Virus record (IMG/VR): IMGVR_UViG_3300032288_001625 | Span: 1 to 35,891 of that record | Length of the DNA stretch: 35,891 nucleotides | Reading direction: 5' to 3' (one strand) | Source: a virus | Shown: positions 2,129 to 35,891 of the stretch, piece by piece | Position numbering within the stretch: position 1 is the stretch's first letter | Layout of the letters: each line of letters opens with the position of its first letter | The notes under the pieces: model-generated | Seen by the model: the letters and a program-made list of their open reading frames with translations, nothing else | Database searches by the model: none | Told to the model about the DNA's origin: nothing | Program-made: the position numbers and the translations under genes

Positions 2129-3410
2129 CGGCCTGCGACTCCTCCGACTCGTCTTCGGCGTCATCGGCCGGGGTGTCTTCCACCTCAACGGCTGACTCGG
2201 GCATCGGCTCGGGTGCCGGCGGCTCCTGGCCCAGTTTGTCGAGCGTGGTCATGTTGAGTTGAACGAAGTGACGGTCACCGTCAGGCCCGATGGGGTTGAG
2301 GTTCTCGGCCTCGCGGATCTCGTTGATCGTCATCCAGCCATTCTGGAGTGCCGACACATAGAACGCCGCCCGGCTTGTGTGGTCACCACGCAGCAGCCCG
2401 TTGACGTTGTGCTCGGCGAAATACCGCTCATCGTCCACGATGAGGTCACGCGAGATCGCCGCCTCCCACCGCTTGAGATGCGGCAGCAGGCAGTGCTGCA
2501 CAAACTCGGTGCCCTGTACCTCGATGTTGCTGTACGTGCTGCGGGTCAGGTCTTGGATCATGTGCGGCGGCACACGGAACGCTCGGCAGATTTCGATGAC
2601 TTGATATTGCCGCGTCTCAAGGAACTGGGCCGCCTCGTTGCTGCCGCTGAGCTCCTTGGCGGTAACGCCCAAGGGGAGGACGGCCGTACGGAAAGCACGG
2701 TCGCTGCCCCTGTGCATCCGCTCCCAGCTCTCACGCAAACGCTCGGCCGCCTCGACCGGAATCGGGTTGCTGCTCTCCAGCACAATGCCTGGACGCGCGC
2801 CATTCCCAAAGTATGTGGACCCGTGGGCCTCCAACGCCTGGGCCAGCCCGATGGCGTTGCGGAACAGCGTGTACGTGGGGATCGGCCGGATGCCGTCCTC
2901 GGTAGTGAACCGAAGGCAGAAAATCTGCTCCTGCGTGTACAGCGTCTGTTTGCCAGACGGCTCGCGGTACTTGTACCGCACGGTCCCGTTCTCAAGCCGC
3001 TCGGCTTCCATGCGAGACGAGTGCAGCGGCCACAGTTCCGACACGGCACCTCGAGCACCTGGGCGGATCTCGGCGTAGCTCGCACCGTAATGCAGGTACA
3101 TGCCGGTCATCCAATCGCGGAACTCTTGGGCCGTCTGCCACGGGTTGGGCTGCATGTGCAGCAGCCGATACACCGGATGCTGCGGAGCCTTGGCCTTGCC
3201 GCCGTTGGCGAGCCGCTCATAGACGTGCAGCGGCAGAGCCGAGACGGCGTCCGATATCACACGGATGCAGGCCGTGTACGCCGAGCACGCCATCGAGTTG
3301 TCAGCGTTGACCCGAATGCCAGACGGCGTGCGGCTAGACGAGGACTCGGTCCACTCAATGCCACGCAGGTCGAACATCTTGAAATCGGCGACGGCGTTTT
3401 CAGTGGTCAT
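2118..3410 (-). CDS. Portal protein, HK97 family
   Basis: This 430-residue protein forms the dodecameric ring at one capsid vertex, through which DNA enters and leaves and to which the tail attaches. Family features are an N-terminal segment with ACSAYTACIRVISDAVSALP (about 40-60), the HPVYRLLHMQPNP motif (about 77-90), a central FRNAIGLAQALEAHG helix, and YQVIEICRAFRVPPHMI near 275-290, which is highly typical of the phage_portal family. The C-terminus is acidic (about 395-430). The start ATG overlaps the terminase stop by four bases (ATGA), and the protease start lies within the last codons. The length is normal for the family. Confidence 0.95.
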   Translation of the reverse strand: MTTENAVADFKMFDLRGIEWTESSSSRTPSGIRVNADNSMACSAYTACIRVISDAVSALPLHVYERLANGGKAKAPQHPVYRLLHMQPNPWQTAQEFRDWMTGMYLHYGASYAEIRPGARGAVSELWPLHSSRMEAERLENGTVRYKYREPSGKQTLYTQEQIFCLRFTTEDGIRPIPTYTLFRNAIGLAQALEAHGSTYFGNGARPGIVLESSNPIPVEAAERLRESWERMHRGSDRAFRTAVLPLGVTAKELSGSNEAAQFLETRQYQVIEICRAFRVPPHMIQDLTRSTYSNIEVQGTEFVQHCLLPHLKRWEAAISRDLIVDDERYFAEHNVNGLLRGDHTSRAAFYVSALQNGWMTINEIREAENLNPIGPDGDRHFVQLNMTTLDKLGQEPPAPEPMPESAVEVEDTPADDAEDESEESQADGV

Positions 3411-4969
3411 AGGGTGATGATGTCCCAGTTCTGGTTGGGCGTTGTCGATGTGGCATGCACGCCGGCAGCCATCACGAGACTCACAATGCCGTCAATTCGC
3501 TCGTGGCTTCTCTGCTTGCTCGGCTTGATGTTTTGCCCGTCTGTCTGAATGGCCACATTCCCGGCCTGCCAAGTGAGCACCTCGTGCCCGCCGTGGAGCA
3601 GCTTGCCGCCGCAAATCCACGCCTCAACCTGCAGAGACGGGGCCGACATGGCCCCATATCCCTGCCCGTACCCTACGACCGGCAGCCCATCCTCTTGCAG
3701 AAGTTGCTGCGTCAGGTGCGTTGAGTTCCAGCGGTCCACGGCTATCTGCCGGATGGTGTACCGCTTGGCCAGTTCAACGATGTCACGCCTGACCGCCGAG
3801 TAGTCGGTGATGTTGCCCTGCGTGACGTGCAGCAGCCCCTTTCGCTGCCACACGTCATACGGCACCTTGTCACGCTTGACCCGCTGCTGCAGGTTCTCTT
3901 CCGGTATCCAGAAGTGTGGCTGCACCCAGAACGTGCCGTCGTCTAGCGGGAACAGCAGCACGAATGCCGTAGTGTCGAACGTCGTGGCCAGGTCAAGCCC
4001 GGCGAAACAGACGCGGCCGGTGAGATCGACAGGGCACGGCACGTTGCCCTTGGCCCAGTTGTGCATGCCGATCCATCTAGTGTCCTGCTCGGTCCAGCAA
4101 TTCAAGTACAACTGCCGGAAAGTGTTTTCGTATGCAGGCATCTCAAGTGCCCGCTGGCACTCGCTTCGCAAGAAGTCGAGCTTGACCGACACGCCGAGAT
4201 TAGGGTTGGCAGCGGCCCACGTTTTTTCATCCCGCCAATCGGCATCCTGCGGAGCACAGAAGATTGCCGGCAGGAACGATTCGTCTCGCACCGCTCCCGT
4301 CCTGACGGCTTCCGCATATTTCCACACGTCCCAGCACACAGACTTCTTGTCGTGCCCGGCCGTCGTGAGCGCCACTGTTAGCGGGTTGCGTCGCGCCCCC
4401 TGGCTCGACAACATCACCTCCCACATTTCCCGATTGCTCACGTGGAGCTCGTCAAAAATCACAGCGTGGGCGGAAAGCCCGTGCTGAATCCCGGCCTCGG
4501 CAGAAAGTGCCTTGTAAGTGGCGTGCGTTGACTCTCGCACGATGGCGTTTCGGTAGACCTTGAGGTGCTGCCGCAGGACAGGCGACTGCTCGACGGCGAT
4601 CCGTGCGGTGTCAAAGACCAGCCGGGCCTGGTCCCGCGAGGCGGCACACGAATAGACTTCGGCTCCCGGCTCGTCCTCGAGCATGCACCGCAATGCGATG
4701 CCAGCCGCCAGCGTGCTCTTTCCATTTTTGCGAGGAATGGCCAGCAGCGACGTGCGAACCTTCCGCCGGCCGTTCTCTTCTGCAAACAACGCCCTCAGAT
4801 AATCACGCTGCCATGGCTGCAGCAGGAACGGCTTTCCGCCGAGCTCACCCTTGGCGTGCGTCAGGTGCTTCTCAAAGAACCGCACCGCAAGGCACGAAGG
4901 GCACTTGTTGCACGGCCTCTCAGCCGAACATGAGGCGGTCTTCGTCGTCGTTCGACGTTGCTTGCTCAA
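3407..4969 (-). CDS. terL: Terminase large subunit (ATPase and nuclease)
   Basis: This 520-residue motor packages DNA into proheads and cuts it. The ATPase domain has a Walker A-like IPRKNGKST at 78-86 and Walker B AVIFDEL at 169-175, with a likely coupling motif LTTAGHD near 201-207. The C-terminal RNase H-fold nuclease has the first metal-binding Asp in FAGLDLATTFD near 326. The protein resembles the HK97/Terminase_1 group. The N-terminus carries a CxxCxxC cluster (20-26) that could bind a metal. The open frame begins at TTG 4969 and overlaps the small subunit gene by 50 bases. No better start with a clear ribosome-binding site was seen, so the start is less certain than the gene. Confidence 0.95.
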   Translation of the reverse strand: MSKQRRTTTKTASCSAERPCNKCPSCLAVRFFEKHLTHAKGELGGKPFLLQPWQRDYLRALFAEENGRRKVRTSLLAIPRKNGKSTLAAGIALRCMLEDEPGAEVYSCAASRDQARLVFDTARIAVEQSPVLRQHLKVYRNAIVRESTHATYKALSAEAGIQHGLSAHAVIFDELHVSNREMWEVMLSSQGARRNPLTVALTTAGHDKKSVCWDVWKYAEAVRTGAVRDESFLPAIFCAPQDADWRDEKTWAAANPNLGVSVKLDFLRSECQRALEMPAYENTFRQLYLNCWTEQDTRWIGMHNWAKGNVPCPVDLTGRVCFAGLDLATTFDTTAFVLLFPLDDGTFWVQPHFWIPEENLQQRVKRDKVPYDVWQRKGLLHVTQGNITDYSAVRRDIVELAKRYTIRQIAVDRWNSTHLTQQLLQEDGLPVVGYGQGYGAMSAPSLQVEAWICGGKLLHGGHEVLTWQAGNVAIQTDGQNIKPSKQRSHERIDGIVSLVMAAGVHATSTTPNQNWDIITL

Positions 4970-5378
4970 CGGCTGAGACTCTCGCCAAGGCCGACGCCGT
5001 CAAGCCGAACTGCTCCGCGAAACGCAGCATGTGCAGGCGGGCGTCCTTCTTGCGATACCAGGCCGGGTGATTCATCACCCTACCCTTATCGTCCATGAAC
5101 GTGGCACCGTGCTGCTTCAGTTCAGCCTCGGCCTTCACCATGTCCGCAAGAGCGTCGCAGTACGCGGCCAGCGTGTGCTGGTGCCGCATGCTCATCACCT
5201 TAGACGCCTCAAGCATCGGCACGATGCGTTGCCACTCGGCCCGGCCGATCTCGCACAGGTACGAAGGCGGCTCTGGAATGCCCGCAGGGACTTCAATGCC
5301 GCTCTTGTGCGGCCCCCTAACGCGAGCCCCTCGGAGCTTAAGGATCGGCTTAGGCGTAGGCTTCCTGCCCTTACCCAT
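4920..5378 (-). CDS. terS: Terminase small subunit, P27 family
   Basis: This 152-residue protein recognises phage DNA and delivers it to the large subunit. The sequence has the P27 pattern: a basic, Pro-rich N-terminus (KPTPKPILKLRG), then IPEPPSYLCEIGRAEWQRIVPML near 34-56, a QHTLAAYCDALADMVKAEAEL helix, and an NHPAWYRKKDARLHMLRFAEQFGL segment near 104-127. The start codon overlaps the ligase stop (TAATG at 5380-5376), indicating translational coupling to the ligase and Prim-Pol genes upstream. Confidence 0.9.
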   Translation of the reverse strand: MGKGRKPTPKPILKLRGARVRGPHKSGIEVPAGIPEPPSYLCEIGRAEWQRIVPMLEASKVMSMRHQHTLAAYCDALADMVKAEAELKQHGATFMDDKGRVMNHPAWYRKKDARLHMLRFAEQFGLTASALARVSAVEQATSNDDEDRLMFG

Positions 5379-7662: not shown

Positions 7663-7980
7663 CTAGCCTTGCAGTGGATCTGGCGGGAGCAGTGCGAGAG
7701 CGTCGGCCCACGGTATCACCTCAACGCTCGGCAGCAGCACGGCCTGATCGGCTGCGGCCCACATATCGTGAAGCAGACCGCCCGGCATGACCTCGGTGAG
7801 CACGTCGGCACAGAGCATCAGACGGCCATCAGTCAGGACGCGAGGGGCCGGGACGCAGTTCGTCGTACCGTGTGCGGCGTGAAGTTGAGCGAGCCGGCCA
7901 GCCAGTTGCGGCGTGAATACCAAAGCCAACTGCTTAGCGTCGGCGTCACTGATCGGAAGCGTGAGGTCGGCGAGGGTCAT
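7663..7980 (-). CDS. Unknown protein, 105 residues
   Basis: This acidic, Leu/Ala-rich protein has its start overlapping the stop of the lectin-like gene by four bases (ATGA), so the two are translationally coupled. It has a Pro-rich C-terminus and no recognised motif. Possible roles are a chaperone or a partner of the preceding fibre-like protein; this is inference from coupling only. Confidence 0.7.
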   Translation of the reverse strand: MTLADLTLPISDADAKQLALVFTPQLAGRLAQLHAAHGTTNCVPAPRVLTDGRLMLCADVLTEVMPGGLLHDMWAAADQAVLLPSVEVIPWADALALLPPDPLQG

Positions 7981-8819
7981 AGGTTGCGCCCGAGCGTGGT
8001 TTGCAGCGTCTGGAGTGCCGTGTAGTAGGACGAAGCCTGCGAGGCCGTCATCGAAACACCGAGCGAGTAGGCTTGAATCAGGCCTGAAAAATAGGCAGCC
8101 GGAGTTTCTGTGGTGGTGCCCTGCCCGAAAATGATGAGCTTGTTTGTGTCTGCGGCTGTCGTGCCGTTGTCGGTCGCTGTGCTGCTTACGGCAGAGCCGT
8201 TCCGATACAGAGCCGCAACGGTGGCGGACGTTCTTACGGCCACTAAATGCCCCGAGCCAGTTGTCAGCGTTCCCTCTAGCCCGCTGTTGCTACCCACGGT
8301 TCGGTAATACACGCGTGTACCGGCAGAGTAACCAGGGAAAAAAGAATAAGAATTGGCACCGATAAACTGAGAGTTAGTCGCCATTAAGTCGCGCGAATAG
8401 ACGGCGACGTGATTGTTCCACGGCGTCGCCGCAATATCGGACGGCGCGATGCCGGGACGCAGGTACTTCGTGGAGTTGCTGCCGCTGTTAAGCCCGCCGG
8501 TAGATCCCGTTTCGGTGTAGTCGCCAGAGACGAAGTTCAGATTTGTGTCGGTCGTGTTGCCGTACTGCGTTCCACTTCGACTCGGCCCGCGATACAGCGG
8601 AACGAGGCAAGCATTTAGCCCCGTACCGCAAAATAGGTTCAGCCTATAGAACCTGTCTCGGATGCCGGCCGTGTCGATGGCTTTGCAGAACTTATCAACG
8701 GCCGACAGCGTGGTGCCGCTAACGCTTCCACCGTTGGCCACCACGGCCGTCTTCCACGCAGCTGCCTCTGGATGCACTCCACTGGCCTTCGGCCGCAGCA
8801 GCTTCGGATTCATCGCCAT
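7977..8819 (-). CDS. Lectin-like (LamG/concanavalin-type) virion protein
   Basis: This 280-residue protein has a C-terminal half typical of LamG or concanavalin-like jellyroll domains in phage adhesins: YYRTVGSNSG, SGHLVAVRTSATVAALYRNG (a strand with a Gly turn, about 190-210), a KLIIFGQG strand, YFSGLIQAYSLG and a final helix SSYYTALQTLQTTLGR. The N-terminal region resembles other short tail proteins that start MNPKLLRP. It probably binds glycans on the host or decorates the virion. Local base composition is visibly lower in GC than that of its neighbours, as often seen in exchangeable receptor-binding genes. The exact virion location is unknown. Confidence 0.7.
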   Translation of the reverse strand: MAMNPKLLRPKASGVHPEAAAWKTAVVANGGSVSGTTLSAVDKFCKAIDTAGIRDRFYRLNLFCGTGLNACLVPLYRGPSRSGTQYGNTTDTNLNFVSGDYTETGSTGGLNSGSNSTKYLRPGIAPSDIAATPWNNHVAVYSRDLMATNSQFIGANSYSFFPGYSAGTRVYYRTVGSNSGLEGTLTTGSGHLVAVRTSATVAALYRNGSAVSSTATDNGTTAADTNKLIIFGQGTTTETPAAYFSGLIQAYSLGVSMTASQASSYYTALQTLQTTLGRNL

Positions 8820-8822
8820 GCG

Positions 8823-9062
8823 TTAGTTCTCCACCTTGGCTGCCTTGGCCTGCAGGGCGTACAGCAGCTTCGTCTGCTCGGCCACGGCCTGACTGATCTC
8901 TCGCTGCGTCTCGCCAAGCTGCTTCACGAAGGAGCGGTGCTCTTCCACAAGCGGAAGCAGCACGTCGTTCCTGAGTATCCACCCGGCCGCAAGCGCCACG
9001 AGCACAGGGAAGCCCCAACGCTCCATGATGCCGAAGACGGTGTCTTTCGCTGCCTCAGTCAT
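8823..9062 (-). CDS. Small membrane protein with coiled coil, holin candidate
   Basis: This 79-residue protein has one hydrophobic segment (about residues 15-34, WGFPVLVALAAGWIL) followed by a charged helical tail (EEHRSFVKQLGETQREISQ), a layout like BhlA/UviB-type holins and other phage membrane proteins. ATG 9062 is chosen over the longer open frame because it follows the upstream stop with an 8-base overlap. Its place beside another membrane protein, a lipoprotein and a peptidase suggests a lysis role, but no holin family signature is decisive. Confidence 0.65.
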   Translation of the reverse strand: MTEAAKDTVFGIMERWGFPVLVALAAGWILRNDVLLPLVEEHRSFVKQLGETQREISQAVAEQTKLLYALQAKAAKVEN

Positions 9063-9405
9063 GGTGTCGGCTCTCGCGGACGAGTAGTCGCATGGCGGCT
9101 TGGTTCTCTTGCCGCTCCAGCCACCAGCGTATGAGGACTTTGACAACCTCTTGCACCAGTGCACCCAGCACGAGCGTCAGGATGATGCCCATGCCGTACT
9201 GTTGACGCACTTGCCGCTCGATTGCCTTGGCCATGTGATGCCCGACCACGTCGCACTCGGCGGCATCGCACTGCTGCAGCACGGGGATAGGCCACGATGC
9301 AACCGCACGGCGAACGATGCGGCCGACGATCCGCCGGCCAGCGATGGTCCGCTGGAGGGTGGGCACTCGGTCCCAGGCGTACTGCTCGAGCTCGTTGATC
9401 GTCAT
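9055..9405 (-). CDS. Membrane protein of unknown function (lysis region)
   Basis: This 116-residue protein has a basic, soluble N-terminal part (RRIVGRIVRRAV) and one strong transmembrane segment at about 76-92 (GIILTLVLGALVQEVVKVLI), then a charged tail. ATG 9405 overlaps the lipoprotein stop (ATGA). Together with the next gene it could form a holin and regulator pair. No family was recognised. Confidence 0.65.
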   Translation of the reverse strand: MTINELEQYAWDRVPTLQRTIAGRRIVGRIVRRAVASWPIPVLQQCDAAECDVVGHHMAKAIERQVRQQYGMGIILTLVLGALVQEVVKVLIRWWLERQENQAAMRLLVRESRHHD

Positions 9406-9695
9406 GGCTTGCACTTCCCGTCTGGGCACACCACCACGCTCTTTGGCTCACGGCCAGTGCCTCCGCATGCGTTGCAAGTGATGACGATGCGGCCATCAGT
9501 TGGCATGGTTCCAGTTCCGCCGCAGACCTTGCACTTGCCATCGCTGGGCGGTGCAGGCGTCGGGGCAATTTCCTGCCGCATCTGCACGACCATGCGGGCC
9601 GTCTCGGCGGCCAGGTCAGCGGTGAGCCCGTTGTCACCGGGCAGCGTGGCGACGCAGCCGGCCATCACGACGAGAAAGGCGAGCACGAAACGCAT
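9402..9695 (-). CDS. Lipoprotein with DnaJ-like zinc motifs
   Basis: This 97-residue protein begins with a signal sequence and lipobox, MRFVLAFLVVMAGC, predicting lipid attachment at Cys 14 and a location outside the cytoplasm. After a short helical and Pro-rich linker come two CxxCxGxG-type repeats (CKVCGGTG and CNACGGTG) and a final CPDGKC pair, the arrangement used for zinc binding in DnaJ cysteine-rich domains. The start ATG overlaps the peptidase stop (TGATG). A lipoprotein beside lysis genes recalls outer-membrane spanins, but the zinc knuckles are unusual for them. The function remains open. Confidence 0.7.
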   Translation of the reverse strand: MRFVLAFLVVMAGCVATLPGDNGLTADLAAETARMVVQMRQEIAPTPAPPSDGKCKVCGGTGTMPTDGRIVITCNACGGTGREPKSVVVCPDGKCKP

Positions 9696-10618
9696 CACAG
9701 GATCCCCCGGAGCCAATCGTCTGGCATCTGCGTTGGCTTGAAGCCGCTGAACCCGGCGTAGACGTAGGAGTCACGCCCTGCACACATGCGGTCAATCACG
9801 TCCGCATCGGCCCAGAAGGAGCAGTTGCGAACCGCCTCGGGCATGTCGTGCGGATAGTGCCTGCCAACCGTGTTGGAGTCGCCCCAGCTGTTGAAGATCA
9901 GCACGCCGGGACGTTTACCGAATCGCACGCCGCCCCCAAACATGCAGTGCCACCAGACTCCGCCGGCCCGGCAGAATCCATCTTCATCGCGGCTCATCGA
10001 AAAGCCCTGACCAGAACAGAAAACGACGCCAAAGCCATTGCTGATTGCTCGGGCACAATCGTCAAACGACGTGGCCAGCGTAGTCTCTGAGCACCGCCGC
10101 TCTTTGGCGTACGGCTCGAGCACGTCGGGCACGCCGTTGCGGCCCCACTCGCGGTCCCGCTGCTGCTTGCCTTCCTCGCGGATCACCGTGCCGCCGTAGT
10201 CAACGCCATAGTGCAGCGAGCCGAAGTCCCTGATCGCCTTGGCCGCGTGGAAGCCAGTTGACCCGTCGCCGCCAGTGTTGGCACGAATGCCACGGGCCTC
10301 GACACGGGAGAACCCGTACAGGCTCGATTCAATCGTGCGGCCCTTCCACGCCTCTGGCTCTTTTCGCCAGTGGATGTCGCACGCAGCGAGCACGTCTACC
10401 GCCAGGCTGCTTCCCCAGCCGACGCAGCTGCCCACGTTGCCTTGCGAGCCACGCCGCCACTTGCTGTCGCAGGCGAGAAGTGCCGGATACAGCATCACAT
10501 CTTCGCCGGCCGCCCGCAGGTCAGGCCCGGCCGAGGCAAGCGTTGGGTGCGGCAGAGTCGCCACGAACGACTCGGCACCTTCAGGATCGGGCACGTAGCC
10601 CATGCCACGGTCGGCCAT
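9695..10618 (-). CDS. Papain-like cysteine peptidase (C1 fold), lysin candidate
   Basis: This 307-residue protein shows the four active-site positions of papain-like peptidases in the right order: Gln 59 and Cys 65 in SQGNVGSCVGWGSS, His 224 in GVWWHCMFGG, and Asn 243 in LIFNSWGDSN. The His and Asn contexts (WWHC, NSWG) are highly typical of C1 enzymes. No signal peptide or transmembrane segment is present. No lysozyme, amidase or other peptidoglycan hydrolase was found in the genome, and the neighbours are a lipoprotein and two membrane proteins, so it may be the lysin, cutting peptide bonds of the envelope. A virion-maturation or host-takeover protease is the alternative. Confidence 0.8.
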   Translation of the reverse strand: MADRGMGYVPDPEGAESFVATLPHPTLASAGPDLRAAGEDVMLYPALLACDSKWRRGSQGNVGSCVGWGSSLAVDVLAACDIHWRKEPEAWKGRTIESSLYGFSRVEARGIRANTGGDGSTGFHAAKAIRDFGSLHYGVDYGGTVIREEGKQQRDREWGRNGVPDVLEPYAKERRCSETTLATSFDDCARAISNGFGVVFCSGQGFSMSRDEDGFCRAGGVWWHCMFGGGVRFGKRPGVLIFNSWGDSNTVGRHYPHDMPEAVRNCSFWADADVIDRMCAGRDSYVYAGFSGFKPTQMPDDWLRGIL

Positions 10619-10621
10619 GCG

Positions 10622-11227
10622 TCACCCCTTGCCGACGCCGGCCCACGCCACAGCACGACAGAACGCCACGTAGCGGCCACGCACGTCAGCGGTGACCGGA
10701 ACCACGTCCGTGCCCACAGCGGCCCCATAGGCGGCCTCTACGGCCTTCCTGAGCGGCTCGTTGCTTCCAGGCACATGCCCGCCAATCCGACGCCAGCCGA
10801 TGTCGATGGCCAGGGCGGTGAACGCTCGCAGGCTGCGTGTGTCGGTGAACACCACCTCGGTGGTCACGGCATCGCCTGCCGCCACGGTCGCAGCCTTCGT
10901 CCACACCTCGGCCCACAGGGCACGGTCTACGGCCGAGGCACCACGAAGGGCATCGGAAATCGGCTGAACCAGCGTCTGCATCTCGTCACTCGGCGTATCA
11001 ACGGAAACACGGGCCGGGGCGGCTGGCAGCGTGGGCAGCGGAACCTTGCCCCACGCGGCTGCGAGCAGCAGGGCGACGGCCGCCACGCGGCTCAGTAGGC
11101 CGGCTTTTTCTTTTGCGGCTTCCACCGCACGGAACGCCGCTGCTCGGATCTGCGGCCAGTACGGAGCCACCGCGAGAGCAACCGCCAGAGTGACGGCAGC
11201 GGCGCGAAATGCAGTGTCGGCATTCAC
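10622..11227 (-). CDS. Membrane protein with two N-terminal helices
   Basis: This 201-residue protein has two hydrophobic helices near the N-terminus (about 7-24 and 45-61) separated by a short basic loop, followed by a soluble domain of about 130 residues with DTRSLRAFTALAIDIGWRRIGG. The GTG start at 11227 overlaps the upstream stop (GTGA). It precedes the peptidase gene with a 3-base gap and may belong to the lysis cassette. No family was recognised. Confidence 0.7.
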   Translation of the reverse strand: MNADTAFRAAAVTLAVALAVAPYWPQIRAAAFRAVEAAKEKAGLLSRVAAVALLLAAAWGKVPLPTLPAAPARVSVDTPSDEMQTLVQPISDALRGASAVDRALWAEVWTKAATVAAGDAVTTEVVFTDTRSLRAFTALAIDIGWRRIGGHVPGSNEPLRKAVEAAYGAAVGTDVVPVTADVRGRYVAFCRAVAWAGVGKG

Positions 11228-11523
11228 CGTGCGCCCTCGACTTGCAGAAGGCACCACCGCACGAGGGCTTCGCCCTCCTTGGTCTTCAGCAGGTCGCTGA
11301 CGAGCCGCACCAACTGGTCATCGGCCTGGGCCTTCGTCTTGGACGCCAGCCACTCGGCCGCCTCGCCGACGATGATGCTCCGCTTGTACGGGTCGAGCTC
11401 GTTGACAAACCGCTGGCCGTACCCGATGAGCGGCGACCAAGCACTCAGCAGTTGAAGTTGCTGCCAGATGTTGAGGTTTGCCCCGTACTGGGCAAGCTCG
11501 GCTGGGGTGGCTTCGTAATTCAC
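11224..11523 (-). CDS. Unknown small helical protein
   Basis: This 99-residue protein appears mostly helical, with an aromatic N-terminal half (ANLNIWQQLQLLSAWSPLIG) and a charged C-terminal half. The GTG start at 11523 overlaps the upstream stop (GTGA) and is preceded by AGGAGG, a strong ribosome-binding site. It is coupled to the membrane protein downstream. No family was recognised. Confidence 0.7.
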   Translation of the reverse strand: MNYEATPAELAQYGANLNIWQQLQLLSAWSPLIGYGQRFVNELDPYKRSIIVGEAAEWLASKTKAQADDQLVRLVSDLLKTKEGEALVRWCLLQVEGAR

Positions 11524-11786: not shown

Positions 11787-12145
11787 CACTGCACCTCGCC
11801 AGCCTGGTCCTCAAACGCCTCACGGGCCTCGTCGGTCATCTCGATGCGTTTGAGCGTCACGGGCTGCGACTTGATGACGCGGCGATCCTCGCGGACTTCC
11901 TCAGTCCACGTGGACTGAATCACCTTCTTCGCCTTCTCGATCTCGCCGGGCGTCGGGTCACGCTGCCGCACGGGCTTCGCCCGCAGCCGCCGGTCGTGTC
12001 GGGGTGGCAGATGCCAGACGTGCTTAAGGCGTATTACTTGGTCGCGGCTAATTGTGTACCGCTCGCACAACGCCCGCATGGGCATGTGCGTGAGCCAATC
12101 GGCACGGAATGCGGCGACGCTAATGGTCGCCGTGATGCCCTTCAT
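11783..12145 (-). CDS. Helix-turn-helix DNA-binding protein
   Basis: This 120-residue protein has a helix-turn-helix at about 12-45: MPMRALCERYTISRDQVIRL, followed by a short WHLPPR extension. A basic linker leads to DPTPGEIEKAKKVIQSTWTEEVRE, which also appears in simpler form in the protein at 13978-14286 (DPTPDEIVRMAAAIRAK). The two share the same order of elements and may be distant paralogues. It is probably a transcription regulator. The start overlaps the glycosyltransferase gene by 26 bases. Confidence 0.7.
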   Translation of the reverse strand: MKGITATISVAAFRADWLTHMPMRALCERYTISRDQVIRLKHVWHLPPRHDRRLRAKPVRQRDPTPGEIEKAKKVIQSTWTEEVREDRRVIKSQPVTLKRIEMTDEAREAFEDQAGEVQW

Positions 12146-13028
12146 CGTCGCTCATCCATGCCATGACGCATCGCTGCGACGGGTTCAGGTACAGGTGCTG
12201 GCCCGTGGCGTTGGCGATGCTTCGGTGATACGGCACATGCTCGCAGTCTTTCGCACCGTCGTACGTCCCTTGCAGGAACGCTTCCGTGCGATAGATGCAC
12301 AGGCCGCCGAAGGCAGACGAGACGAGCACGGGCGGCGAGCCAACGGGCGGAAGCCACTGATGCTTCCATCCGCCGAGGCCAGCGGTGTAATCGTCGAAGT
12401 CGCAGTCGGCTTGCCCAACGCCACGCAACGCCCAGGCGTCGTAGTGCGTCCATCCCTTGCCGATCTTCGGCTGACGATCCTCGGCCATGCCGAGCATCGT
12501 GAACTCGTTGAGCGACACGCTTGCCATGCCGTAGGCACCGGGCATCTCAACGAGCCACCCGATGCCGTTGAGCAGCCCGCTGTGCGACCAGCCACCCCAC
12601 TGGTCCCAGTCGATGACGATCACGTAGTCGGCATCGGCGGCACAGTCACGCACCCACCGCTGGCACGCGTCGCGGTACTCGGCCAAGGCGATAGTGCGAC
12701 GGCCGGCGAACTCGGCCCCGTAATGCTCACGGCCCAGCGTTTGTGATGTGAACGTCGCCTGCTTGTACGCTTCGGCGAACGCTTGGAGAACCTCAAGCGT
12801 CTGGTCAGTGCTGTCGTTTTCTTCGATGTGCAGAGCCCATGACTTGCACGACCGCACGAGGTGCTCAAGCCGGCCGAGGTTCTCGGCGAGACGCACGCCA
12901 CAGTTTCGGGCCAGGCCGACAAAGGCCACCTTTGAGTGTGCCAGCCGATCCACGCCTTCAGCGTACCGTTTTTGGTACAGCTCAGCGAACGGCTCCAGCG
13001 GATAGATGAGGTGGTCGGGGATCTTCAT
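12120..13028 (-). CDS. Glycosyltransferase-like protein (GT-A type)
   Basis: This 302-residue protein carries KVAFVGLARNCG near 33-44, an SWALHIEENDSTDQTLEVLQ strand-turn-helix typical of nucleotide-sugar binding GT-A folds, and a VIVIDWDQWGG segment near 137-147 that fits the metal-binding DxD position. It resembles mannosyltransferase-like proteins with the FVxxARN motif. It probably transfers a sugar onto a phage or host acceptor; the acceptor is unknown. ATG 13028 overlaps the upstream stop (ATGA); a GTG at 13037 is an alternative start with its own GGAG. Confidence 0.75.
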   Translation of the reverse strand: MKIPDHLIYPLEPFAELYQKRYAEGVDRLAHSKVAFVGLARNCGVRLAENLGRLEHLVRSCKSWALHIEENDSTDQTLEVLQAFAEAYKQATFTSQTLGREHYGAEFAGRRTIALAEYRDACQRWVRDCAADADYVIVIDWDQWGGWSHSGLLNGIGWLVEMPGAYGMASVSLNEFTMLGMAEDRQPKIGKGWTHYDAWALRGVGQADCDFDDYTAGLGGWKHQWLPPVGSPPVLVSSAFGGLCIYRTEAFLQGTYDGAKDCEHVPYHRSIANATGQHLYLNPSQRCVMAWMSDDEGHHGDH

Positions 13029-13558
13029 TTCTTCCACGCGACTCCGAGGCCGTAGTCATCGGCGATGATGTCGTGCGGTGCGTTGTGCTTCGCCACGAAC
13101 TCGTCAAAGCACCGCTGTAGGTCCGGGTGGGCCGGATGCGTGATGTCGTGAAACACCACGCAGCCGCCGGGCATCACGAGCGGCCAGACGTTCACAAGGT
13201 CGGCCATTCCGCCTTTGTATGAGTGGTCGCCGTCCACAAGCACAAGGTCGAACGCCTCGGCCTTCTCGGGCATCAGAGCCGGAATGGTGTCTCGGCTGTT
13301 GCCGTCAAGAAACGCACGGCGGCCGTCGAAGTTGAAATCGTCCAGCAGCTGCTCGATGTGCTGATGGTTGCCACGTCCGCTTCCGCCGTAGTCGCTGCCC
13401 CAAAGATCCGCCACCCAGACCGAGAGCAAGTCGTCGGCTGCGTTCTCAAGCACGATCCGCAGCGAGTCTCCGTCACGGGTGCCGATCTCAAGGTAGTGCT
13501 GCACCTTGTGCCGCTGGCAATGCTCGGCGAGGTAGCGGTAGAGGCTGGCGTTGCTCAT
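13025..13558 (-). CDS. SAM-dependent methyltransferase, family 24 type
   Basis: This 177-residue protein has the SAM-binding motif HYLEIGTRDGDSL near 21-33 and the FDLVLVDGDHSYKGGMADL segment near 102-120, with PGGCVVFHDI near 129-138, all characteristic of the Methyltransf_24 family, which is often encoded near glycan-modification genes. It is coupled to the glycosyltransferase downstream (ATGA) and to rusA upstream (ATGA). The pair probably builds or caps a sugar modification; the substrate is not visible. Confidence 0.85.
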   Translation of the reverse strand: MSNASLYRYLAEHCQRHKVQHYLEIGTRDGDSLRIVLENAADDLLSVWVADLWGSDYGGSGRGNHQHIEQLLDDFNFDGRRAFLDGNSRDTIPALMPEKAEAFDLVLVDGDHSYKGGMADLVNVWPLVMPGGCVVFHDITHPAHPDLQRCFDEFVAKHNAPHDIIADDYGLGVAWKK

Positions 13559-13956
13559 CGCACCCGCACGGTCGTGCGTGCCTCCGTGCCGTAACTCTTC
13601 TCGACCACCAGGCGAGACACGCACGTGTCATCGCCTATCACGTCCTGCAGGGCGTCGAGCACGGCCTTGCCGATGTTGTCGACATCGGGCCGTGGCAGCA
13701 CCGGGGCTGACGGTTTCAGCCACCCGCTCTTCAGCAAGTGAGATTTCGGGCGGGCGAAGACGGCGTCAACGATCACGCTGAGAGGACCGTCAGCCTTAAC
13801 AACGCCAGCGGCTCGAGCAGCGACTGCCACCGCTTGGCGATAGGCGTGAATTGGGTGGTCGCTTGGGACGTATGCGTGGCCGTGCTTGCCACGCACTGTG
13901 ATGCGCGGACGAGGCTGCGGCACTGGATCGCCGGGTACGCTGAACGTGATGGCCAT
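13555..13956 (-). CDS. rusA: Holliday junction resolvase, RusA family
   Basis: This 133-residue endonuclease resolves four-way DNA junctions arising in recombination or replication. Family marks are PGDPVPQPRPRIT at 8-20, LPRPDVDNIGKAVLDALQDVIGDD at 88-110 with metal-binding Asp 91, Asp 93 and Asp 101, and a final strand with VVEKSYG. The length is normal. It works logically with the RecT-like annealing protein of the same operon and could remove branches before packaging. Confidence 0.9.
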   Translation of the reverse strand: MAITFSVPGDPVPQPRPRITVRGKHGHAYVPSDHPIHAYRQAVAVAARAAGVVKADGPLSVIVDAVFARPKSHLLKSGWLKPSAPVLPRPDVDNIGKAVLDALQDVIGDDTCVSRLVVEKSYGTEARTTVRVR

Positions 13957-35342: not shown

Positions 35343-35891
35343 TCACGCACCCACGAGGGCGATGACCGGGCCAGCGACCGTGTCGCTGCCAAGCTCGCTC
35401 CACGAGATGGCGCACCGCATGGTGGCCCGCACGACCACCTGATCGCTCAGGAACGCCACCTGATCGCTGGACGCGATCTCCAGGCCACGACGCACACCGA
35501 AGTGAGCGGCGTTGCGGAGGTTGGCGTACAGGGCCATGACCTTGCCGGTCTGGTCGCCCGAGCCCACCATTTGATGGGAGAGCAACACCGGGCTGCCCAA
35601 GAACGTCAGGCCGAGCCCCTGCGACAGACCAACCGACCCGCCCTGGGCGAGGTCGAGAGCCTGGAGGCAGGTGGCGAACGCATAGGGGGACACGATCCAC
35701 GCCGCACCCTGCCGACTGTGGCTCGGCATCTTGGCCATCATCTCGAGGATGTTGGCCTTGGTGACCTCCTCGAAGAAGTCGCCGGCAGCCGTCACGAGGC
35801 TCGCGGCGTAGGTCGCCGAAGAGCCAGCGAGGATGCCGCCGCTGGTGAGGATGCCCGCGACGCTGGGGGCGTTCGCCGAGTTGCCGTTGAA
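35343..35891 (-). CDS. Major capsid protein, HK97 fold (C-terminal part)
   Basis: This is the remainder of the capsid gene that begins at 888 and wraps through the circle junction. It encodes the A- and P-domain segments, including ANILEMMAKMPSHSRQGAAWIVSP, LLSHQMVGSG and the DQVAFLSDQVVVRATMRCAI strand near the C-terminus, all usual in HK97-type capsids. The open frame runs off the window end; bases 35769-35891 repeat bases 1-123. Confidence 0.95.
   Translation of the reverse strand, partial: FNGNSANAPSVAGILTSGGILAGSSATYAASLVTAAGDFFEEVTKANILEMMAKMPSHSRQGAAWIVSPYAFATCLQALDLAQGGSVGLSQGLGLTFLGSPVLLSHQMVGSGDQTGKVMALYANLRNAAHFGVRRGLEIASSDQVAFLSDQVVVRATMRCAISWSELGSDTVAGPVIALVGA
35769..35891. repeat. 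Terminal overlap, copy 2 (circular genome)
   Basis: This stretch is identical to bases 1-123. It belongs to the same capsid codons and should be removed when the genome is closed. Confidence 0.95.

Follow-up and report, generated by a model that had tools for sequence, protein, structure and literature searches.

A papain-like cysteine protease in a conserved phage module: a candidate lysis enzyme in phages of Planctomycetota

Genome and gene neighbourhood

The window, i.e. the whole stretch of DNA analysed here (IMG/VR record IMGVR_UViG_3300032288_001625; 35,891 nucleotides), has ends that are identical over 123 bp (1–123 = 35769–35891), and its capsid gene is continuous across the junction. 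It is therefore a circular genome in complete form (35,768 bp), whose IMG/VR record was opened inside the capsid gene. Pfam searches returned terminase, portal, S78 prohead protease, capsid, head-tail genes, a clamp, RusA and an integrase-type match, among others.

The gene of a predicted papain-like cysteine protease lies in a same-strand run extending from position 11523 down to 8823, in which start and stop codons overlap or are 3 nt apart, and after which HNH and terminase genes come on the same strand (Table 1). The plus strand at the coordinates of the protease gene is interrupted by stops when translated. The initial annotation had placed the protease beside a lipoprotein and two small membrane proteins, and all three were located directly downstream; the membrane-anchored protein directly upstream was absent from it. 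The gene of this upstream protein shares a GTGA overlap with the gene preceding it and stops 3 nt before the protease start. Holin and spanin families gave no significant match among the window proteins in Pfam or PHROGs; the neighbours of the protease fit by size and order and, going by shape, the lipoprotein may form a spanin pair with the coiled-coil membrane protein.

Two further regions were recorded. Directly after the lysis-like genes, positions 7977–8819 encode a LamG-like protein with a conserved N-terminus (MAMNPKLLRPKASG), the remainder of which diverges widely among close relatives (about 240–520 aa), which suggests that a receptor-binding or surface protein has been swapped here. 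Positions 12120–13624 encode a glycosyltransferase-like protein (weak match), common to many relatives, and then a methyltransferase of the TylF/Methyltransf_24 type.

Table 1 Features of the protease module and of the packaging genes downstream of it
Feature	Position	Strand	Description
Conserved 99-aa protein of unknown function	11224..11523	minus	translationally coupled, upstream of module
Upstream partner	10622..11227	minus	two hydrophobic N-terminal segments, Pro-rich linker, ~100-aa C-terminal domain (helical by inspection)
Papain-like (predicted C1-fold) cysteine protease gene	9695..10618	minus	307 aa, ATG start; Gln59, Cys65, His224, Asn243
Small lipoprotein (MRFVLAFLVVMAGC)	9402..9695	minus	DnaJ-like CxxCxGTG...CxxCGGTG motif; start within protease stop codon (TGATG)
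Small membrane protein	9055..9405	minus	C-terminal transmembrane segment; ATGA overlap with lipoprotein gene
Small protein with one transmembrane segment	8823..9062	minus	coiled-coil-like tail; resembles a holin or an inner-membrane spanin in shape alone
Terminase small and large subunits	3407..5378	minus	packaging module, downstream of protease module

Conservation of the gene and its active site

Open reading frame length by itself was rejected as proof of the gene and is worthless as evidence here, because Markov shuffles of the 63% GC window sequence yield frames as long as that of the protease. Relatives were instead collected from IMG/VR stretches: a first scan gave 47, a profile-like scan 134, and a broader query at least 571. 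All 203 aligned family domains have Cys65, His224 and the oxyanion Gln, and 196/203 have Asn243; pairwise dN/dS between the protease and close relatives was 0.09–0.18 (purifying selection). Since relatives are numerous, the catalytic residues are kept and dN/dS is low, the gene was regarded as real and its active site as being under selection. The Gln-Cys-His-Asn set, previously noted in GSC, WWHC and NSWG contexts, is complete in the 307-aa frame (SQGNVGSC65, WWH224C, N243SWG), and the check proposed at that time, for loss of Cys65 or His224 in relatives, revealed no such loss among the aligned members. Separately, the catalytic Asn is replaced by Gln (QSWG) in two Planctomycetota copies (L167 and L168).

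Fold and family assignment

Single-protein queries gave no match in Pfam, PHROGs, PDB (phmmer) or INPHARED phages. A profile of 23 diverse members found xylellain (PDB 3ois; E 8e-4), and its Cys, His and Asn fall in the same alignment columns. The AlphaFold2 model from a 23-sequence alignment (pLDDT 88, pTM 0.89) superseded an earlier, poor one from a shallow alignment (pLDDT 41). Its top structural match using Foldseek and VIA-align was xylellain (Z 22.4, 2.9 Å, 239 residues), followed by cathepsins and papain (Z 17 to 20). In the model, the catalytic Cys65 begins a long helix (65–83) and Gln, Cys, His and Asn are in papain order. The window protein is thus modelled with a papain (C1) fold, which settles in favour of C1 the structural comparison with NlpC/P60 that had been suggested initially; NlpC/P60 (PF00877) and CHAP (PF05257) had zero matches anywhere in the window genome.

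The Peptidase_C1 family (PF00112) was not matched by the window protein, and two of the 23 family members matched it, short of the cut-off score (best E 0.038). Because this curated model was not reached, the protein was filed as papain-like and not as a PF00112 member. No cell-wall-binding domain was found in the window protease and no peptidoglycan-binding domain in its family.

The module across lineages

Lineages were compared as 18 sequence clusters at 55% identity. The product of the gene 5′ of the protease is usually exported or anchored and has an apparently helical C-terminal domain of ~100 residues, and some of these partners are lipoproteins with a PKD-like domain. They form two groups, homologous within each (HMM-HMM probability 58–100% for most pairs), and the partner in the window was linked by HMM-HMM comparison to upstream genes of other lineages. 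Between the groups, a single comparison (E 0.002, probability 13%) is suggestive of homology. Common ancestry of all upstream partners was not upheld, as this link is weak and the partner in L099 had no HMM-HMM match.

On the 3′ side of the protease, 82/84 window-clade loci (module loci alone counted) encode an exported protein with a Cys motif. Four other clusters have, in 10 loci, an exported thioredoxin-like domain that starts about 300–600 nt past the protease; no second thioredoxin-like domain was found elsewhere in those 10 loci. Several clusters have a protease with an N-terminal hydrophobic anchor, others one that lacks it. Window-clade proteases have neither a signal peptide nor an N-terminal membrane anchor, and a weakly hydrophobic N-terminal transmembrane segment of the SAR type is absent from the window protein, several related lineages having a hydrophobic segment.

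Relatives and likely host

The sole relative in the plasmid collection was a hypothetical protein of pPLIM01 (NC_014149.1) from Planctopirus limnophila, for which no paper was found in the literature. This 37-kb replicon, catalogued as a plasmid, is a phage-plasmid: besides a full set of siphophage-type structural genes, it encodes ParB, CsrA, a sigma factor and two integrases. In the 84,980 species genomes that were scanned, two relatives of the protease turned up, both in Planctomycetota, and a strong match was obtained in 13/392 sampled Planctomycetota genomes; restriction of the family to this phylum was judged within that sample and the one scan. Three loci (L160, L169 and L172) were assigned to prophages because terminase, portal or head genes lie close to the protease gene. 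The module adjoins TerL/portal in the window, in pPLIM01 and in the L160 prophage, and a minor-tail gene lies beside it in L169. The protease module is widespread in phages and, where the host is known, this is a member of Planctomycetota. The host of the window phage was probably a budding bacterium from this phylum too, as judged by sequence relatives of roughly 25–40% identity. The terminase was discarded as a host marker, its best matches (about 45%) being uninformative ones to phages of gut Firmicutes. A related virus record of 99 kb contains an open frame of about 4,845 codons (L258:3611-18148).

Search for ordinary lysins

HMM searches for NlpC/P60, M15_3, SLT, phage lysozyme, CHAP and M23 gave no match in the window, pPLIM01 or ten related phage records, and Amidase_2 was absent from eight of those related records; positive-control genomes gave matches in these searches. 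Among the Pfam matches listed for window or pPLIM01 proteins there was likewise no lysin family. Seven lysin families were searched by name, and the G395/G400 family tables give the best 25 matches, outside which weaker lysin matches may lie. The earlier statement that lysozyme, amidase and transglycosylase are missing was borne out on the complete genome, and no recognisable alternative endolysin gene emerged in it, so that the underlying observation (gene, residues, neighbours and missing usual lysins) was confirmed. As some tail genes lack annotation, an unrecognised lysin could hide in the window.

Association with wall proteins

Whether protein or peptidoglycan bears the load in the planctomycete wall has been debated since the 1980s (PMC4432640, PMC3422733, PMC8567305). 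Cell walls prepared from Planctomycetales contain cysteine-rich YTV proteins, and most members of this order reportedly lack the genes for making peptidoglycan (PMC8567305); peptidoglycan components were biochemically demonstrated in P. limnophila and three others (PMC4432640). YTV (PF07639) was found in 42/392 Planctomycetota genomes, including all 13 protease-positive ones (Fisher p 4e-14 over 392 genomes that are not independent). To control for prophage content, the comparison was repeated among the 59 genomes that carry a PF04860 portal gene; here the protease was present in 5/18 YTV-positive vs 0/41 YTV-negative genomes (p 0.0017, each genome counted as independent). This pattern is a co-occurrence and not a cause, because the genomes are non-independent and YTV itself marks one order.

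C1 enzymes cleave ordinary peptide bonds, and we know of no established murein hydrolases among them. Three points make wall protein a serious candidate for the substrate: papain-type enzymes cut such bonds, redox motifs are found in the neighbouring proteins, and the walls of the likely hosts contain cysteine-rich proteins. The target may be a wall protein rather than peptidoglycan; cleavage of stem peptides is the conventional alternative.

Proposed function and alternatives

Because a papain-like protease stands at the lysin's expected place and no ordinary lysin was found, host lysis by these phages may work through protein cleavage. On balance, we consider it somewhat probable that the window encodes an active papain-like cysteine protease which takes the place of the endolysin in a planctomycete-infecting phage. 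This reading is plausible in view of the fold, the catalytic residues, purifying selection, conservation of the module, the missing usual lysins and the Planctomycetota prophage setting of distant relatives. Tight translational coupling with membrane proteins and the mix of anchored and soluble forms across lineages also speak for a lysis role; endolysins of both kinds are known, as are a SAR endolysin and its releasin in Mu (PMC9239132). Of the original proposal that the papain-like peptidase is the lysin, the C1 fold, the catalytic set in relatives, the cassette-like setting and the lack of a recognisable competitor stood, and the lysin role itself keeps the conditional form given here. Against lysis counts that the protease has no cell-wall-binding domain, that no murein hydrolases are known to be established among C1 enzymes, that holin and spanins were assigned by shape alone, and that one cultured planctomycete reportedly releases phage without lysis (PMC10945688). 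A description of how phages open planctomycete cells was not found in the literature.

The course of events that we infer for timing, export, lysis, substrate and partner roles would be as follows. The protease would be made in the cytoplasm late in infection, together with the products of the coupled membrane and lipoprotein genes. In the window clade, the soluble enzyme would get to the envelope after a membrane lesion or permeabilisation, and in related lineages it would be exported directly through its own N-terminal anchor. There it would cleave a load-bearing envelope component, upon which the cell would burst. The upstream anchored protein may serve as envelope partner or regulator of the protease, and the downstream Cys-motif lipoprotein or thioredoxin may keep the catalytic Cys or substrate disulfides reduced. 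A more specific form, redox-assisted proteolytic lysis, in which the protease, the exported thioredoxin or Cys-motif lipoprotein and the anchored partner dissolve the disulfide-rich YTV wall of Planctomycetales and not peptidoglycan, is put forward tentatively and as doubtful. To our knowledge, no earlier phage lysis system is aimed at a bacterial protein wall, and this one, if true, would be the first.

The membrane anchors of several relatives, their pairing with lipoproteins and their occurrence in prophages and on pPLIM01 would also suit a protease that acts on the envelope of a lysogen or early in infection and remodels host surface proteins without lysis, e.g. to exclude other phages. 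We regard this as fairly unlikely, as the gene sits within a co-oriented packaging block and is coupled to the surrounding genes, window-clade proteases lack an export signal, and the carrier phages have no other recognisable lysin. The position of the gene among head and tail genes, together with the L169 copy, which precedes a minor-tail-family gene and a 990-aa gene, could point to a virion or virion-maturation protease, either tail-associated for entry or processing structural proteins. However, a separate S78 prohead protease is encoded in the window genome and a ClpP-type counterpart in pPLIM01, many relatives carry an N-terminal membrane anchor, and the partners are lipoproteins and membrane proteins, which makes such a role distinctly unlikely. 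A cytoplasmic protease for host takeover or counter-defence would fit the window clade, devoid of signal peptide and membrane anchor, but is very improbable given the anchored relatives, the conserved pairing with exported partners and the packaging genes in the same-strand block.

If the protease is the lysis enzyme, its meaning goes beyond a single odd lysin, as the module is a widespread one of phages. The lysis enzyme that phages have evolved shows directly what keeps a cell together; one that is a protease and that is, in our sample, restricted to genomes with cysteine-rich wall proteins would make the question of the planctomycete wall testable. It would also supply planctomycete genetics with a lysis tool.

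Comparison with known systems

Xylellain, a C1A papain-like protease of Xylella fastidiosa, shares the fold and the order and type of catalytic residues with the window protein, but is 16% identical and belongs to a bacterium, where it has no phage gene module of this kind. Proteins of uncultured phages annotated as Peptidase_C1 in BFVD likewise have a papain fold in a phage setting; they differ by identities of 14–17% and have no assigned function, one of them bearing a peptidoglycan-binding name. The SAR and cytoplasmic endolysin cassettes of lambda, P1 and Mu resemble the module in combining an enzyme with small membrane proteins and lipoproteins, with an N-terminal anchor that varies by phage (for Mu, PMC9239132). 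Their enzyme is a glycosidase, amidase or transglycosylase, whereas a predicted papain-like protease takes this place here, and the present module additionally has an exported partner and a thioredoxin or Cys-motif protein. Closest in arrangement is the pPLIM01 protein encoded at 1184–2218, which is 27% identical over most of its length, has the same Gln-Cys-His-Asn set and lies in the same gene order as in the window (protease, small exported Cys protein, HNH, TerL, portal); unlike the window protein, this homologue, annotated as a hypothetical protein, has an N-terminal membrane anchor, and its upstream partner carries a PKD-like domain.
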